A stretch of DNA of 64,000 nt from Ruminococcus sp. YE71 (GTDB taxonomy: Bacteria; Bacillota; Clostridia; Oscillospirales; Ruminococcaceae): positions 186,001-250,000 of the forward strand of contig NZ_FPIR01000003.1 in assembly GCF_900119155.1 (NCBI RefSeq), written 5' to 3'. The notes beneath the pieces are model-generated. The model ran no database searches. It worked only from the letters and a program-made list of their open reading frames with translations, and was not told the origin of the DNA. This document shows, in pieces, positions 22,748 through 30,435 of this stretch (position 1 is the first letter of the stretch; every line of letters starts with the position of its first letter). The translations under genes and the position numbers were made by a program.

Positions 22748-22780
22748 AACAGCCTCGCTTTGAATGGCGAGGCTGTTTTA
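22748..22780 (+). terminator. Terminator after cysteine-hydrolase-like gene
   Basis: AACAGCCTCGC, eight-base loop, GCGAGGCTGTT then TTAAAA; 11-bp perfect stem with A-rich left flank. Confidence 0.85.
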
Positions 22781-22794
22781 AAAAGCCGGTCAAA

Positions 22795-22939
22795 AGGGCA
22801 TGAAAAAAGCCCATTGTTAAGCGGTCGGCGAACCTGCAACGGGCTTTCATCATCTATAGAATTATGAAAGGGATTTGGTATATTCTTTATTTGTTGTACT
22901 TAGTATAACATCCTTAAATGAACCGAATATGACATATAA
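22795..22939 (+). ncRNA. Tandem structured-RNA unit 1 (type A)
   Basis: First of five related units in 22795-23941. Order of conserved blocks: AGGGCAT, a stem half, CGGTCGGCGAACCTGCAA, the other stem half, CATCTATAGAATTATGAAAGGG, then after a variable part AAATGAACCGAATATGACAT. The main stem is GCCC with GGGC here, versus GTCC with GGAC in units 3-5, a compensatory change that argues for RNA structure. No ORF. Strand is assigned by the covarying stem plus the run of neighbouring genes and is tentative. I cannot name an RNA family. Confidence 0.55.
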
Positions 22940-23022
22940 GCATCTCAGAGATAGAAATTAATTAAAAATTCACATCTGCGTTTGTGGAATTTGCACAATT
23001 GCCTTTATCCCGCATCCGTTTC

Positions 23023-23170
23023 AGGGCATAATTAAAGCCCATCGTTTAATCGGTCGGCGAACCTGCAATGGACTCTAATTATCTATAGAATTTTATGAAA
23101 GGGATAAGTTGTATTCTTCATTTGATGTACTTAGTATACCACGCTTAAATGAACCGAATATGACATATAA
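23023..23170 (+). ncRNA. Tandem structured-RNA unit 2 (type B)
   Basis: Same blocks as unit 1: AGGGCATAATTAAAG, GCCCAT stem half, CGGTCGGCGAACCTGCAA, ATGGAC, TCTATAGAATTTTATGAAAG, and AAATGAACCGAATATGACAT. Its stem has one C-A mismatch. An outer CATAA/TTATG pairing is possible. The 3' part (TTCATTTGATGTACTTAGTA, then ATAAAACGTTTAAG) is shared with unit 4, not with units 1 and 3. Confidence 0.55.
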
Positions 23171-23240
23171 AACGTTTAAGCATAGAAGATTTGAGGAAAT
23201 TTCTCTTGAAAATTGTGCATCCTGCACAAGAGCCTATTTC

Positions 23241-23389
23241 AGGGCATAATTAAAGTCCATCGTTTATATCGGTCGGCGAACCTGCAATGGACTCTAATTA
23301 TCTATAGAATTTTATGAAAGGGATAAGTTGTATTCTTTATTTGTTGTACTTAGTATAACATCCTTAAATGAACCGAATATGACATATAA
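23241..23389 (+). ncRNA. Tandem structured-RNA unit 3 (type A)
   Basis: Perfect main stem GTCCAT (23255-23260) with ATGGAC (23287-23292) enclosing CGGTCGGCGAACCTG. Its 3' part and the spacer after it (CATCGCAGAGATAGAATTTA) are near-identical to those of unit 1, 448 bp upstream, showing that the array grew by duplication of a two-unit block. Confidence 0.6.
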
Positions 23390-23472
23390 GCATCGCAGAG
23401 ATAGAATTTAATTAAAATTTAACATCTTCGTTTGTGGAATTTGCACAAGGGCCTTTATCGGGCATCCGTTTC

Positions 23473-23622
23473 AGGGCATAATTAAAGTCCATCGTTTATA
23501 TCGGTCGGCGAACCTGCAATGGACTCTAATCATCTATAGAATTTTATGAAAGGGATAAGTTGTACTCTTCATTTGATGTATATAGTATACCACGCTTAAA
23601 TGAACCGAATATGACATATAAA
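23473..23622 (+). ncRNA. Tandem structured-RNA unit 4 (type B)
   Basis: Perfect GTCCAT/ATGGAC stem around the invariant CGGTCGGCGAACCTGCA. Its 3' part (TTCATTTGATGTATATAGTA, ATAAAACGTTTAAG) matches unit 2, 451 bp upstream. CTTAAA and TTTAAG flanking the AACCGAATATGACAT block can also pair. Confidence 0.6.
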
Positions 23623-23691
23623 ACGTTTAAGTGTAAAATATCGCGAGAAATTTGCCCGTGAATTTGTAAGGTTTACACAAATTGGTATTTC

Positions 23692-23941
23692 AGGGCATAA
23701 TTAAAGTCCATCGTTTTAAAAGCGGTCGGCGAACCTACAATGGACTCTAATCATCTATAGAATTTTATGAAAGGGATAGTTGAATTCTTTTTCAAGTGAG
23801 GAACTGTAGGGAACAGCTGCGCGGAAAATATATCGGCTGTTACACCGAGAGGGGGAAGTACATCTTCCTGAGCATGAACCCTGCTCCCTGTCCTCTTCAG
23901 CAACTTAAATATAACACGCCTACATGAACCGAATATGAACT
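23692..23941 (+). ncRNA. Tandem structured-RNA unit 5, with a long insert
   Basis: Same 5' core with perfect GTCCAT/ATGGAC stem (loop CGGTCGGCGAACCTA). After ATGAAAGGGATAG the unit carries about 100 extra bases (23790-23900, containing GGAACTGTAGGGAACAGCTG and GAGGGGGAAGTACATCTTCC) before the closing TGAACCGAATATGAAC. It ends 88 bp before the response regulator gene at 24030, so it may also serve as part of that gene's leader. Confidence 0.5.
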
Positions 23942-24029
23942 ATCGGGCCATTATTATAAAAATATTATTTTTAACGGAAAATTATTGTTTTGTTAACATC
24001 TCAAAGAAATGAAAAGGAGGAATCAGAAA

Positions 24030-24707
24030 ATGTTTCAGGTACTTGTAGTGGAGGACGACAACAACCTCCGCAAACTTATGTGCGCGGCTCTCAAACAGAA
24101 CGGCTACAACCCTCTCCCCGCCGCCGACGGCTTCGAGGCTCTCGACGAAATGGAGAAATACTCTGTGGACCTCGTCATCTCGGACATCATGATGCCCAAG
24201 ATGAACGGCTACGAACTCACCCGCCAGCTCAGGAACGCAGGCTTCGATATGCCCGTGCTCATGGTCACCGCGAAAGAGTCCTTCGAGGACAAGCAGAACG
24301 GCTTCATGGTCGGCGCGGACGACTATATGGTAAAGCCCATCAACATCGACGAGATGATACTCCGCGTGGGCGCTCTGCTCCGCCGCGCAAAGCTCGCGTC
24401 GGACAAGGTGCTGTCGGTGGGCACATTCAAGCTCAACTACGATTCGCTCACCGTCACCAACGGCTCCGAACCGCCCGAGACTATCCCGAACAAGGAGTTC
24501 ATGCTGCTGTTCAAGCTGCTCAGCACCCCCAACCAGATCTTCACCCGCAGACAGCTGCTCGACGAGCTGTGGGGTCTCGAATCGGACGTTGACGAACGCA
24601 CGGTGGACGTTCATATCAAGCGTATCCGCGAACGCTATACACCAAATGACAACTTTGACATCGTGACCGTAAGAGGTCTGGGGTACAAGGCTGTCAAGAA
24701 AGTGTGA
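24030..24707 (+). CDS. OmpR-family response regulator
   Basis: 225 aa from ATG 24030, with AAAAGGAGG before it; an in-frame upstream start at 24009 would cover the RBS. Receiver domain with VVEDDNN (acidic pair), phosphoacceptor aspartate in LVISDIMMPKMNG, and DDYMVKPINIDEM; winged-helix effector domain from about residue 130 ending VRGLGYKAVKK. Its stop overlaps the GTG start of the histidine kinase gene, so the two are coupled. Lies directly downstream of the RNA array. Confidence 0.92.
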   Translation: MFQVLVVEDDNNLRKLMCAALKQNGYNPLPAADGFEALDEMEKYSVDLVISDIMMPKMNGYELTRQLRNAGFDMPVLMVTAKESFEDKQNGFMVGADDYMVKPINIDEMILRVGALLRRAKLASDKVLSVGTFKLNYDSLTVTNGSEPPETIPNKEFMLLFKLLSTPNQIFTRRQLLDELWGLESDVDERTVDVHIKRIRERYTPNDNFDIVTVRGLGYKAVKKV

Positions 24708-26053
24708 ACCGTATGGCTTTTCAGAGAAAAGACCCCGACAAACCGCGTTTTTCGCTGTCGCTGAAATTCTCGCTGATGCTGTTTCTTGTGATGCTGCTGT
24801 CGGCGGTCATCGCAGTGATAGCACTCCTGTTTGTGATGGGGCCTATCGTTTCGCAGAACACCGAGAACCGCGTGAATTCGCTGGTATCGTCCATGAAACT
24901 GCTCGAACAGAAGAAGGTCTACAGCACCAGCGAGATAATCTCCATCTGTAACGTGGATATCGCCGAAGTGACCACTCTGCCCGAAAAAAGCGGCGAAAGA
25001 TACAACGTTCTTATCGACGCCGCCGAGCATAACTGCTACATCGAGCGTGAGGGCAGGCTGTTCCCGACTGTCACGGGCTACACGGTCATAGGCGGCGACT
25101 ACCTCAAGATCGTCCCCGTCAATTACGACAACATCTACTGGATAGCGACATTCGTCACGATCATCACCATGCTCGTCAGCATCGTGCTCGGTTCGCTGAT
25201 GACCATGTTCGTGACCCACAGGATACTGCGCCCCATCAAGAACCTCTCCAGCGCGACGGCTATGGTCGCGAGAGGAAACTTCAAGGTCCGCGTTCCCGAA
25301 TCGAAGGACAAGGAATACAACCAGCTGATAAAGAACTTCAACCGCATGGCAGAAGAGCTTTCGGGCATCGAGACCCTGCGTGGCGACTTCATCAGCAACG
25401 TTTCCCACGAGTTCAAAACGCCCCTCGCTTCGATACAGGGCTTCGCAAAGCTCTTGCAGGACGAGACTATCTCCGATGAGGACAGGCGCGAATACACACA
25501 GATAATCATCAACGAAACGGGCAGGCTCTCGAAGCTGACAAGCGACATCCTGCGCCTATCGAAGCTCGAAAACCAGAACACTATCTCGAACAAAAAGCGC
25601 TTCTCCATCGACGAGCAGATACGCAAGATACTCCTCGTGCTCGAACCCGAATGGACGAAGAAAAACATCAACCTCGAACTTGAACTCGACACGGTCTACT
25701 ACTTCGGAAACGAGGAACTTATGGCGCAGATATGGCAGAACGTCATCAACAACGCCATCAAGTTTACCCCCGAGGGCGGAAATATCGGCGTGCGGCTCTT
25801 CGCAAATGAGAAGAACATAACCGCTAAGATCACCGACGACGGCCCCTCGATCCCCCCCGAGGTCATCGAAAAGATATTCGTTAAGTTCTACCAGGGCGAT
25901 AACTCCCGCAAGACCGAAGGAAACGGCCTCGGCCTCGCTCTCGTAAAACGCATTATCGACCTCTGCAACGGTAAGATCTACGTGGAAAACCGATACGACG
26001 GCGGCGTCTGCTTCACCGTGGAACTCCCCTACGTGATCGGCGACATGATGTGA
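24704..26053 (+). CDS. Membrane sensor histidine kinase
   Basis: 449 aa from GTG 24704 (overlapping the regulator stop as GTGTGA); ATG 24713 is the alternative. Two membrane segments (about residues 20-48 and 145-170) enclose an outside domain of roughly 95 residues; then HAMP (LRPIKNLSSATAMVARGNF), HisKA box FISNVSHEFKTPLASIQGF, N box NVINNAIKFTPEGG and G box EGNGLGLALVKRI. Classic OmpR-partner kinase, signal unknown. A strong terminator follows. Confidence 0.93.
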   Translation: MNRMAFQRKDPDKPRFSLSLKFSLMLFLVMLLSAVIAVIALLFVMGPIVSQNTENRVNSLVSSMKLLEQKKVYSTSEIISICNVDIAEVTTLPEKSGERYNVLIDAAEHNCYIEREGRLFPTVTGYTVIGGDYLKIVPVNYDNIYWIATFVTIITMLVSIVLGSLMTMFVTHRILRPIKNLSSATAMVARGNFKVRVPESKDKEYNQLIKNFNRMAEELSGIETLRGDFISNVSHEFKTPLASIQGFAKLLQDETISDEDRREYTQIIINETGRLSKLTSDILRLSKLENQNTISNKKRFSIDEQIRKILLVLEPEWTKKNINLELELDTVYYFGNEELMAQIWQNVINNAIKFTPEGGNIGVRLFANEKNITAKITDDGPSIPPEVIEKIFVKFYQGDNSRKTEGNGLGLALVKRIIDLCNGKIYVENRYDGGVCFTVELPYVIGDMM

Positions 26054-27270: not shown

Positions 27271-27627
27271 ATGTCAGTAATGACCGAGAATGAAGAAAAC
27301 GGCTGTGTGCATGACGAGGTCATCGAACGGGTGAGACCCGAGATGCCCCCCGAAGAGACGCTCTACGACCTGGCGGAGTTTTATAAGGTATTCGGAGATA
27401 CCACGAGGATACGCATCCTCTACGCGCTGCTCGAAAGCGAGATGTGCGTCGGGGACATGGCGGCACTGCTGGGACTTTCGCAGACGGCGTGCTCACATCA
27501 GCTGAGGGTGCTCAAAAACAGCAAGCTGGTGCGGTTCCGCAGAGAGGGTAAGGTCGTTTACTACTCGCTGTCGGACGACCATGTGGCAAAAATAATCGAG
27601 CTCGGTATGGAGCACGTTACGGAGTGA
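27271..27627 (+). CDS. ArsR/SmtB-family metal-responsive repressor
   Basis: 118 aa. Winged helix with recognition region MAALLGLSQTACSHQLRVLK (residues about 64-83) and wing VRFRREGKVVYYSLSDDHV. The C-terminal helix DDHVAKIIELGMEHV carries Asp/His residues in the alpha5 pattern DxHx(10)HxxE used by zinc sensors such as CzrA and SmtB, only partly conserved here; the N-terminal NGCVHDEVIE could add ligands. Heads the operon with a methyltransferase, an HMA protein and a P1B ATPase, so it probably derepresses them when metal (Zn or Cd class) is in excess. Confidence 0.88.
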   Translation: MSVMTENEENGCVHDEVIERVRPEMPPEETLYDLAEFYKVFGDTTRIRILYALLESEMCVGDMAALLGLSQTACSHQLRVLKNSKLVRFRREGKVVYYSLSDDHVAKIIELGMEHVTE

Positions 27628-27636
27628 GGCGAAGAA

Positions 27637-28233
27637 ATGTTCTGGGATAAGGTCGCATTCGGCTACGAACAGTTCGAGAAAGCGATAAACGGCAGAGTGA
27701 CCTTGATGATGGGCGTCAAGACCGCCGCATTCATCGAGGAAGGCGACGAGGTGCTCGAATGTGCCTGCGGTACGGGGCTCATTAGCCGCCACATCGCGCC
27801 GAAATGCAGAACGCTCACGGCAGTCGATCTGTCGGTGAAGATGCTCGCGCAGGCAGAGAAAAACTGCGCACAGTTTGACAACATCCGCTTTTTTAAGGCG
27901 GATATCACGCACCTGAAATGCAGGGATGAGCGCTTCGACAAGGTGGTGGCAGGCAACGTCATCCACCTGCTCGACGACTCGGAAGCGGCGGTCAGGGAGC
28001 TGATGAGGGTCTGTAAAAAGGGCGGCAAGGTCATCATTCCGACCTACGTTTCGGTCTCGCCGAAACAGATGCTCATGTACGACCTGATAGACAAAACAGG
28101 CGCAAAGTTCAAAAGAATGTTCACGCTCGACACCTACAAGCAGTTCTTCGCAGACATGGGCCTCGAAAACGTCCGCTTCGAGATAGCAGACGGCGTGATG
28201 CCCTGCGTGCTGGCGGTGATTGATAAACAGTGA
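27637..28233 (+). CDS. Class I SAM-dependent methyltransferase
   Basis: 198 aa, single Rossmann-like methyltransferase domain: motif I VLECACGTGLISRHIA, motif II TAVDLSVKMLAQAE, and DKVVAGNVIHLLDD in the motif IV region. Small-molecule type (ubiE/arsM-like size) without a recognisable specificity domain or a cysteine set typical of ArsM. Nine bases after the arsR-like gene and upstream of the HMA/ATPase pair, so it belongs to the metal operon; whether it methylates a metal(loid) is not shown. Confidence 0.8.
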   Translation: MFWDKVAFGYEQFEKAINGRVTLMMGVKTAAFIEEGDEVLECACGTGLISRHIAPKCRTLTAVDLSVKMLAQAEKNCAQFDNIRFFKADITHLKCRDERFDKVVAGNVIHLLDDSEAAVRELMRVCKKGGKVIIPTYVSVSPKQMLMYDLIDKTGAKFKRMFTLDTYKQFFADMGLENVRFEIADGVMPCVLAVIDKQ

Positions 28234-28258
28234 GCGTGATTCCCGGGGATTTGCTAAG

Positions 28259-28287
28259 GCGGATCTCCCCAAGTAAAATCCGCACTT
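28259..28287. repeat. Short palindromic repeat in metal operon
   Basis: GCGGATCTCCCCAAGTAAAATCCGC-like hairpin (GCGGAT paired with ATCCGC) following GCTAAG; a minimal member of the border repeat family, between the methyltransferase and HMA genes. Confidence 0.5.
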
Positions 28288-28315
28288 TTGAAAATAATAG
28301 AAAGGATGGATCATT

Positions 28316-28543
28316 ATGGCAATCGTAAAGAAGAGTTTTGAGATGGAGGATCTTGACTGCGCCAACTGCGCGAGAAAGATGCAGGAGGCTATTGCAAAGC
28401 TGGACGGAGTGGAAAACTGCGAGATCAGCTTTATGGCGCAGAAGATGAAGATCGAGTATGACGACTCGGACGAGAAAAAGCTGTTCAAGGAGATACAGAA
28501 GTGCGTCAAGAAAGTCGAGCCCGACTGTTCGGTGAACTTCTGA
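28316..28543 (+). CDS. Free heavy-metal-associated (HMA) domain protein
   Basis: 75-aa ferredoxin-like HMA domain with the metal-binding motif DCANCA (residues about 14-19) and a second strand VENCEISFMAQKMKIEYDD. It ends 17 bases before the P1B ATPase gene, which lacks such a domain at its N-terminus, so it is likely the metal donor or sensor that is fused in most related ATPases. Extra cysteines near the end (KCVKKVEPDCSVNF) might add binding capacity. Confidence 0.88.
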   Translation: MAIVKKSFEMEDLDCANCARKMQEAIAKLDGVENCEISFMAQKMKIEYDDSDEKKLFKEIQKCVKKVEPDCSVNF

Positions 28544-28560
28544 CGCAGGCAAAGGAAAGT

Positions 28561-30435
28561 ATGAAAAATTTCAAGCTCACGAAAAAACAGAAGAAGATGC
28601 TATACCGCATCACTGCGGCGATAGCGCTTCTCATCATCGCGGAGGTCGTGACCCACGCGTTCAGTCTGCCCGTCTGGGCGCAGATAGTGATATTCCTCGT
28701 GCCTTTCGGGGTTGCGGGGTATGACGTTGTACGCAAGGCGGTGCTGGGCATAGGCAACAAGCAGCTGTTCGACGAGAATTTTCTCATGACGGTGGCGACG
28801 GTCGGCGCTATGGCGGTAGGCGAGTACAGCGAAGGCGCGGCGGTAATGCTGTTCTATCAGGTGGGCGAGCTGTTCCAGAGCATCGCGACCACCCGTTCGA
28901 GGAAGTCGGTGGCGGCGCTCATGGACATCCGACCCGACAGCGCGGTGGTCATCCGCGACGGCGAGCGCATCGACGTTCACCCCGAAGAGGTGGAGGTCGG
29001 CGAGCTCATCGAAGTGGCGGCAGGCGACAAACTGCCCCTCGACGGCATCATCGAGAGCGGCGAGAGCGCACTCAACACCGCGGCTCTGACGGGCGAGAGC
29101 CTGCCGAGAGAGGTCACGGTGGGTGACGAGGTGCTTTCGGGATGCGTGAACCTGACGGGCACGCTGACTGTCCGCACCACAAAGCCCTTCGGCGAATCCA
29201 CCGTCTCGAAGATACTCGAACTGGTGGAAAACGCGTCCTCGAAGAAGGCGAGAGCCGAGAACTTCATCACGAAATTCGCGAGGTACTACACCCCCATCGT
29301 CGTTATCACGGCGGTGCTGGTGGCTGTCCTGCCGCCGCTGTTCACCGACATCAGCTTCAAGACGCAGGTGTACAGGGCGCTGAATTTCCTTGTTGTGTCA
29401 TGCCCCTGTGCGCTGGTGATCTCGGTGCCGATGAGCTTTTTCGGCGGCATCGGCGGCGCTTCGAGACAGGGCGTGCTCATCAAGGGCGGCAACTACATGG
29501 AGACCCTCTCGAAGGTCGGCACGGTCATCTTCGACAAGACGGGTACTCTCACAAAGGGCGAGTTCGGCGTGACCGAGATACTGACCGAAGGCTGCAATTC
29601 CGAAGAACTGCTGGCGGCGGCAGGCTCGGCTGAGATGAGTTCGAGCCACCCGATAGCGCGTTCGCTGGTAAGGACTGCCGAGGAGAGGGGCATCCCCCTC
29701 TCCCGTCCCGAAAGCTGCACCGAGATAAGCGGCAAGGGCATCAGCTGCGTGGTCGGCGGCGAAAAGATACTGGCAGGAAACGCCGCCCTCATGGATGAGA
29801 ACGGCATCAGCTGCCGCAAGGATCACAACGACGGCACGGCTGTCCACATCGCGAAGAACGGCAGGTATCTCGGCGTGATAACCGTCAGCGATACCCTCAA
29901 GCCCGACAGCGCCGAGGCGGTCTCCCTGCTCAAAAAGCTCGGGGTGCGCACGGTCATCCTCACGGGCGACAACAAAAAAGCGGGCGAGGCGGCGGCAAAA
30001 GCCCTCGGTATCGACGAGGTGTACACCGAGCTCATGCCCCAGGACAAGGTGGCGATGGCTGAAAAACTCATCGCCGAAGGCAACGGCTCGACGGCGTTCG
30101 TGGGCGACGGCATCAACGACGCCCCCGTGCTGTCCCGTGCGGATGTCGGCATCGCGATGGGCGCAATGGGCGCCGACGCCGCTATCGAAGCGGCTGACGT
30201 GGTCCTCATGGACGACAAGCCCACAGGCATCGTCAATGCGGTCAAGATATCGCGCAAGACCCTCGGCATCGTGCATCAGAACATCGTGTTCGCTATCGTC
30301 GTCAAGGTCATCGTGCTCGTAACGTCCGCAGTCGGCATCACCAATATGTGGGCGGCAGTCTTCGCAGACGTGGGCGTGGCAGTCCTCGCTATCCTGAACG
30401 CCATGCGCGCACTGACCAAGCCCAAAAAGAAATAA
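28561..30435 (+). CDS. P1B-type heavy-metal ATPase without N-terminal HMA domain
   Basis: 624 aa from ATG 28561 (AAAGGAAAG upstream); the longer frame from 28501 overlaps the HMA gene and is rejected. Actuator TGES, membrane metal site CPC in VVSCPCALVISVP, phosphorylation site FDKTGTLTKGE, and hinge VGDGINDAPVLSRADVGIAMG. Pattern after CPC and the missing MBD fit the Zn2+/Cd2+/Pb2+ export group (ZntA/CadA-like). Acts in the cytoplasmic membrane. Last gene of the ArsR-controlled operon. Confidence 0.93.
   Translation: MKNFKLTKKQKKMLYRITAAIALLIIAEVVTHAFSLPVWAQIVIFLVPFGVAGYDVVRKAVLGIGNKQLFDENFLMTVATVGAMAVGEYSEGAAVMLFYQVGELFQSIATTRSRKSVAALMDIRPDSAVVIRDGERIDVHPEEVEVGELIEVAAGDKLPLDGIIESGESALNTAALTGESLPREVTVGDEVLSGCVNLTGTLTVRTTKPFGESTVSKILELVENASSKKARAENFITKFARYYTPIVVITAVLVAVLPPLFTDISFKTQVYRALNFLVVSCPCALVISVPMSFFGGIGGASRQGVLIKGGNYMETLSKVGTVIFDKTGTLTKGEFGVTEILTEGCNSEELLAAAGSAEMSSSHPIARSLVRTAEERGIPLSRPESCTEISGKGISCVVGGEKILAGNAALMDENGISCRKDHNDGTAVHIAKNGRYLGVITVSDTLKPDSAEAVSLLKKLGVRTVILTGDNKKAGEAAAKALGIDEVYTELMPQDKVAMAEKLIAEGNGSTAFVGDGINDAPVLSRADVGIAMGAMGADAAIEAADVVLMDDKPTGIVNAVKISRKTLGIVHQNIVFAIVVKVIVLVTSAVGITNMWAAVFADVGVAVLAILNAMRALTKPKKK

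Follow-up and report, generated by a model that had tools for sequence, protein, structure and literature searches.

The array and its neighboring genes

The DNA that we analyzed, a single stretch of 64,000 nucleotides referred to here as the window, contains an array of five tandem units between positions 22795 and 23941. The array is flanked by a converging gene of the isochorismatase family and by a divergent gene for an OmpR-type response regulator (24009..24707, plus strand; Pfam Response_reg and Trans_reg_C), the presumed activator of the array. A histidine kinase gene (24704..26053, plus strand; HAMP, HisKA and HATPase_c by Pfam) follows that of the regulator. Nothing in the neighboring genes hinted at what the kinase senses. 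Elsewhere in the window (27271-30435), genes for an ArsR-type regulator, a methyltransferase and a heavy-metal P-type ATPase are consecutive. Below, genomes are labeled G, loci L and genera g, and G000 is the window's own genome.

We found that the layout given in the original prediction was largely correct. The five units are where they had been placed, with spacings of 229, 219, 232 and 221 from start to start, and the proposed duplication of a ~450-bp dimer agrees with the 93.2% identity between 22880-23330 and 23331-23781 (440 aligned bases). The array also has no open reading frame (ORF) of its own, as had been noted. That is, between 22725 and 24008 all fully internal ORFs are at most 50 aa, and those of more than 50 aa overlap the neighboring genes. 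Other parts needed revision. A 17-mer loop described as invariant differs in its fifth copy (CGGTCGGCGAACCTACA), and it is not the best conserved part of the unit; the single-stranded sequence AUCCCUUUCAUAAUUCUAUAG (the core) is conserved better. A distal block, TGAACCGAATATGACAT, had been taken as part of the RNA and is instead the operator, a direct repeat of the response-regulator type with an 11-bp period; it lies ahead of each RNA, with a -10 box after it. The fifth distal copy (TGAACCGAATATGAACTAT) begins 324 bp past the fourth because the fifth unit is longer. The original prediction had also missed that the minus strand is likely the transcribed one, that the unit adjacent to the regulator gene is of the longer RNA type, and that the neighboring two-component genes seem to be part of the system.

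On the minus strand, each unit consists, in order, of GTTCAT or TGTCAT, N5, GTTCAT, N10, a -10 box (TATACT or TATATT, the two forms in the array), a leader, the core, and a hairpin that contains an inner GGUUCGCCGACC stem-loop. We rejected a plus-strand reading because the minus strand alone has operator, -10 box, core and hairpin in this order. Folding z-scores for one unit (-2.25 and -2.24) did not separate the strands.

The positions of the units, all on the minus strand, come from pattern matches (operator-promoters) and from matches to a covariance model (RNAs), with the RNAs assumed to start 7 nt after the -10 box. Unit A, proximal to the regulator gene, has its operator-promoter (GTTCAT-N5-GTTCAT and TATATT; geometry from the sequence) at 23908..23939 (G000:C16:209908-209939) and a predicted long RNA of ~206 nt at 23696..23901, with the core and hairpin at 23696-23781. 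The predicted RNAs of units B to E are short (~100 nt). In unit B, the operator-promoter (TGTCAT-N5-GTTCAT-N10-TATACT) is at 23584..23615, the RNA (~101 nt) at 23477..23577, and the core and hairpin at 23477-23560. The corresponding positions are 23352..23383, 23245..23345 and 23245-23328 in unit C, 23133..23164, 23027..23126 and 23027-23109 in unit D, and 22902..22933, 22799..22895 and 22799-22878 in unit E. Units A to D have two extra A in the core; unit E has the canonical core without them, and a U-run after its hairpin. At the far end of the array, a consensus scan only indicated a terminator-like hairpin with a T-run (22748..22777, minus strand).

Structure and distribution of the RNA family

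The claims that the units resemble structured RNAs and that their stem covaries were both supported. In a plain alignment, 12 of the 15 predicted pairs had compensatory changes. Among 61 distinct rows aligned with the covariance model, 99.1% of cells pair and 14/15 pairs vary on both sides; this alignment was fitted to the structure and is therefore biased towards it. None of 500 shuffles of the 61-row alignment reached any of five measures, and sliding the structure along it lowered the paired share to 33-53%. Covariation alone would also be expected from a mere terminator hairpin. What marks the family is the core together with a GCCGA loop, which is conserved in most aligned units outside genus g146.

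The core was predicted to be more unpaired than the rest of the RNA in 56 of 57 folded units. These 57 were drawn from 64 operator-linked matches, leaving out L009, L011, the weak partial match L103:2807 (counted among the 68 model matches described below) and four copies from G012 that carry TATAA instead of CATAA. L084 has the same sequence as L045 and was dropped from both operator and folding counts. The core, AUCCCUUUC, which contains a UCCC motif, is mostly unpaired by prediction. Genomes of g146 have UUCC or AUCC in place of this UCCC.

The same units were looked for, and found, in related genomes. The covariance model was built from 29 units and necessarily matches these seed units. 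With this model, 12 of the 13 genomes examined from the genus had the RNA, as did 26 of 396 genomes of the family, belonging to 4 of 126 genera. Among 394 genomes of the order, a sample that contains no other known carrier, only the window's own genome matched. The searches of the family and order used stricter filters, with which weak matches are lost. Genomes with the RNA had from 1 to 5 matches. A search at the DNA level gave matches in 9 of 100 genomes, including the window's own; one of the nine (G063) was taken as chance, since its locus (L015) is a promoter match that lacks the core. The core pattern was found in 19 stretches of named genomes, 13 of them titled Ruminococcus and one 'uncultured Clostridia'. 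We rejected the other five (Pseudomonas, Clostridium liquoris, Desertivirga, Aequorivita and Mesoplasma) as chance matches in which the operator is absent. Two exact matches of the 17-mer in viral contigs were GC-rich and unrelated.

The array RNAs are members of no curated Rfam family. The original prediction could not match the array to a named family, and no Rfam family reached its gathering score in the window or in the loci of 8 relatives. At E values up to 10 there were weak matches to RsaE, snoR60 and Atu_C9 only, and that to RsaE was taken as chance (26 bits compared to the 79 needed). Rfam includes an LhrC model. A search of the literature on Ruminococcus small RNAs (sRNAs), with thin coverage of subscription papers, found no title reporting this family.

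The operator-promoter and the adjacent regulator

We found that the RNA and the operator occur together. An operator (up to 4 mismatches allowed) was present on the same strand within 330 nt upstream of 64 of the 68 model matches, and the remaining four (L045, L062, L094 and L104) run into a contig edge. In L009 and L011 the operator was scored on an overlapping match with 4 mismatches, and the true sites are exact. Conversely, the operator-promoter pattern occurred at 49 sites in 20 carrier genomes (0 for the reversed control), and by a comparison of positions 47 of these had a model match within 250 bp downstream. The two exceptions (G115 and G326) lie between the regulator gene and the sRNA, with no core seen. 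In the window's own genome there were 5 operator-promoter sites, all in the array. Allowing up to 3 mismatches, we counted 7 operator motifs in the window, of which the array contains 5; 1.46 were expected in the window, and none of 100 shuffles reached 7.

Extra operator-promoters without a recognizable core lie between regulator and sRNA in L088 (near 1881, minus strand) and L089 (near 1203, plus strand). These sites are perhaps decayed or belong to another RNA gene.

The regulator gene is linked to the RNA as well. It is divergent from the RNA in 27 of 37 loci. Five of the other ten loci stop at the edge of a contig or of the examined stretch, and five are RNA copies located elsewhere, away from the regulator. 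Regulator orthologues (67-100% identity) were found in 23 of the 396 family genomes, and the RNA was present in all 23. In contrast, none of the eight genomes with only a 57-60% identical relative of the regulator had a match to the RNA. In G297, G385 and G421 the RNA is present near a contig end and there was no full match to the regulator. Among the best 25 of 95 NCBIfam families listed, none scored above its cut-off for the regulator. Based on position and co-occurrence, it is very likely that the array promoters are controlled by the adjacent divergent regulator.

In L175 (G182; near 1012 on the minus strand), a sequence resembling the operator, TTTATATTCGGTTAAAT, followed by TATAAT, lies upstream of, and on the same strand as, a gene for a 60%-identical response regulator. 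This may reflect autoregulation in a sister system that has no sRNA.

The first unit was long in 23 of the 27 regulator-linked loci, with a leader of 117-199 nt (counted by script) containing at least one UCCC. The exceptions are L013, L037, L101 and L107 (30-76 nt). Distal units were short (21-54 nt) in the window, L008, L036, L037, L050 and L105, and longer in L096, L102, L103, L106, L107, L109 and one of those in L101.

The order of operator, -10 box, core and hairpin, the covariation, the conserved core, the linkage to the regulator and the complementarity to a conserved leader described below are all visible in the sequence. We are confident that the units are sRNA genes, a reading that presumes their transcription.

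Candidate targets and related systems

The core is complementary to sequences in several mRNA leaders. The pattern TTATGAAAGG-N(4-14)-ATG had 117 matches in 13 genomes, some of them nested, compared to 8 for the reversed control and 40 for a shuffled pattern. We rejected these matches as evidence because they are confounded by ATGAAA start codons, and therefore used a 17-nt match. The upstream extension TATAGAA was exact at 4 of 39 sites, compared to 0 of 1755 control offsets. TATAGAATTATGAAAGG (up to 1 mismatch, outside the sRNA genes) occurred at 18 sites in the 26 genomes that have the RNA and at none in 16 genomes that lack it; by genome, 11/26 compared to 0/16 (Fisher P 0.003). Eleven of the 18 sites are 5-12 nt upstream of an ORF of at least 60 aa, and the other seven have no such ORF at the right distance. 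Outside genus g1, near-exact sites were found only in G274, G369 and G406, with no pilus gene among them as far as seen.

Two patterns led to six homologous genes (31-47% identity) in G002, G004, G005, G008, G009 and G012, found by way of their sites, so that homologues lacking a site would not have been detected. All six encode large proteins with a prepilin-like start, GSVLLAVV. In G012 the neighbors of the large gene have Pfam matches to T2SSF, PilM_2 and N_methyl; the large protein itself has no Pfam match, and 'prepilin-like' is therefore our own reading. By eye, gene order is similar in G005, G008 and G009. The complement of the core over the Shine-Dalgarno site, TATAGAATTATGAAAGGTGG, is identical in four of the leaders; that of G009 differs by one change, and G002 has a shortened form. 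Also by eye, the pilin leaders (L194, L200, L203, L205, L218 and L219) share a hairpin-like stretch and GTTAAAA upstream of the complementary site.

We compared the duplex energy of each core with the pilin leader of its own species to that of 300 shuffles. The genome G004, which is 56% complete and carries a target site without a model match, was excluded, since the RNA was not found there. Five of ten pairs beat all 300 shuffles, and the core of G002 beat all but one. The poor pairs were two of the three cores of G012 (39 and 32 of 300 shuffles as good) and two cores of G009 (59/300 for one and 9/300 for another). In the window's own genome there is an exact site (L187) upstream of a gene for a 143-aa protein without a Pfam match, and two of the window's cores beat all 300 shuffles with this leader. 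Hfq is encoded in all three genomes inspected. We consider it probable that the core pairs with the Shine-Dalgarno regions of mRNAs, and, with somewhat less assurance, that the pilus gene is genuinely targeted in at least some of the genus.

Several other loci have related sequences. In L201 (minus strand, 189; G005) and L202 (minus strand, 211; G007), TATAATTAGC is followed by TATAGAATTATGAATGG and a GC-rich hairpin, with no ORF; the element is alike in the two species and is perhaps another RNA or an sRNA decoy. Two similar genes in G369 (L214, plus strand, 242; L215, minus strand, 220) have TATGGAATTATGAAAGG before them, which complements the variant core of that genome, CATAATTCCATA, exactly; their products look like excisionase-type helix-turn-helix proteins. 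A 90%-identical gene in the window's own genome (L189) and in G009 (L237) looks like that of a sigma factor and has TTATTATTATGAAAGGAGG upstream. It is a weaker candidate target.

Our overall explanation, which is likely as a whole, is that the array consists of five tandem genes for trans-acting sRNAs that are activated by the regulator and repress translation as anti-Shine-Dalgarno RNAs. The kinase would sense an outside signal, and the regulator would then bind and activate the five copies of one minus-strand promoter. Each RNA would end in its terminator-like hairpin and expose AUCCCUUUCAUAAUUCUAUAG, which would pair over the Shine-Dalgarno site of mRNA leaders and block translation. The redundant sRNAs would thus repress genes for pili and surface functions, the pilus gene first. 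The best-supported target, in sister species, is predicted to be the large prepilin-like gene within a type IV pilus operon. More tentatively, the array may be the sole direct output of its sensor, switching type IV pili post-transcriptionally, with copy number (1 to 5) and the two RNA types tuning the dose.

Rsm RNAs bind a protein, and it is possible that the array RNAs do the same, as RsmY and RsmZ bind RsmA, instead of pairing with mRNAs. The many copies, the near-invariant core and the conserved GCCGA loop would fit this as well. We think it unlikely given that, in several species, homologous genes have the complement of the core over their Shine-Dalgarno site, and that the 16 genomes without the RNA lack this complement. 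In this respect the array RNAs would differ from the Rsm RNAs; the evidence favors pairing with mRNA. Slightly less likely again is that pairing of the sRNAs with leaders activates or stabilizes the mRNA, as could happen if the hairpin preceding the pilin site were opened. The conserved hairpin-like stretch is consistent with activation, but the predicted pairing spans GAAAGG, the Shine-Dalgarno sequence, 5-12 nt before the start codon, which is the usual place for repression.

Two further alternatives would leave the array without a functional RNA or treat it as DNA alone. Five operator copies close to a regulator gene could be a cluster of binding sites serving the promoter of the two-component system, with the remainder as spacer. 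This is very improbable, as the core and hairpin are conserved and covary, also at five loci away from the regulator, and match leaders elsewhere. Least probable of all is a DNA-level repeat or mobile element: copies are in tandem and variable in number, but the six DNA matches to one unit in the window's genome are all inside the array, with none dispersed, no internal ORF exceeds 50 aa, and the position beside one gene pair is fixed in 27/37 loci.

Under the preferred reading, that of regulator-activated sRNAs that repress translation, the system likely works like LhrC/LisRK and csRNA/CiaRH. The five similar sRNAs LhrC1-5 of Listeria monocytogenes require LisRK; by pairing of their UCCC motifs with G-rich sequence ahead of its start codon, they impede translation of a surface-protein mRNA (PMC4132741). 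Both systems have several similar sRNAs with UCCC in a single-stranded part (by prediction here) and one two-component system (by linkage here). Unlike LhrC, the array has no Rfam match, its RNAs adjoin the genes of their own regulator, and its operator does not resemble the LisR-responsive element, which lies upstream of -53 (PMC4132741). The bacteria and the candidate target are also different. The streptococcal csRNA promoters, controlled by CiaRH, have a 6-bp direct repeat, TTTAAG-N5-TTTAAG, 10 nt from the -10 box, and there are two to six csRNAs per genome (PMC3091779, PMC8186281). The geometry of the array operator (6-bp repeat, N5, N10, -10 box) is identical, whereas its half-sites are GTTCAT/TGTCAT. 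CiaR also controls protein genes; in contrast, the array-type operator-promoter was found almost only before sRNAs. Streptococcus sanguinis has tandem csRNA1-1 and csRNA1-2, and csRNA1-1 targets pilT of a type IV pilus cluster (PMC3091779, PMC8186281); for the array RNAs, a type IV pilus gene is a candidate target only. GacAS, with RsmY and RsmZ, is a two-component system said to act exclusively via sRNAs (PMC4132741).

In ruminococci, type IV pili contribute to adhesion to cellulose. A role of the Ruminococcus albus pilus in adhesion to cellulose was shown earlier, and in R. flavefaciens 007 strains that degrade cotton and strains that do not have different amounts of a type IV pilin, as reported (PMC3672088). 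If our explanation is correct, the array would represent a family of RNAs that Rfam does not contain, together with its probable upstream switch and a candidate target that is conserved in ruminococci. It would add a further sensor that seemingly acts almost wholly via sRNAs, resembling the csRNAs both in the geometry of its promoters and in having a pilus target, and it would provide a testable controller of ruminococcal cellulose-adhesion pili.
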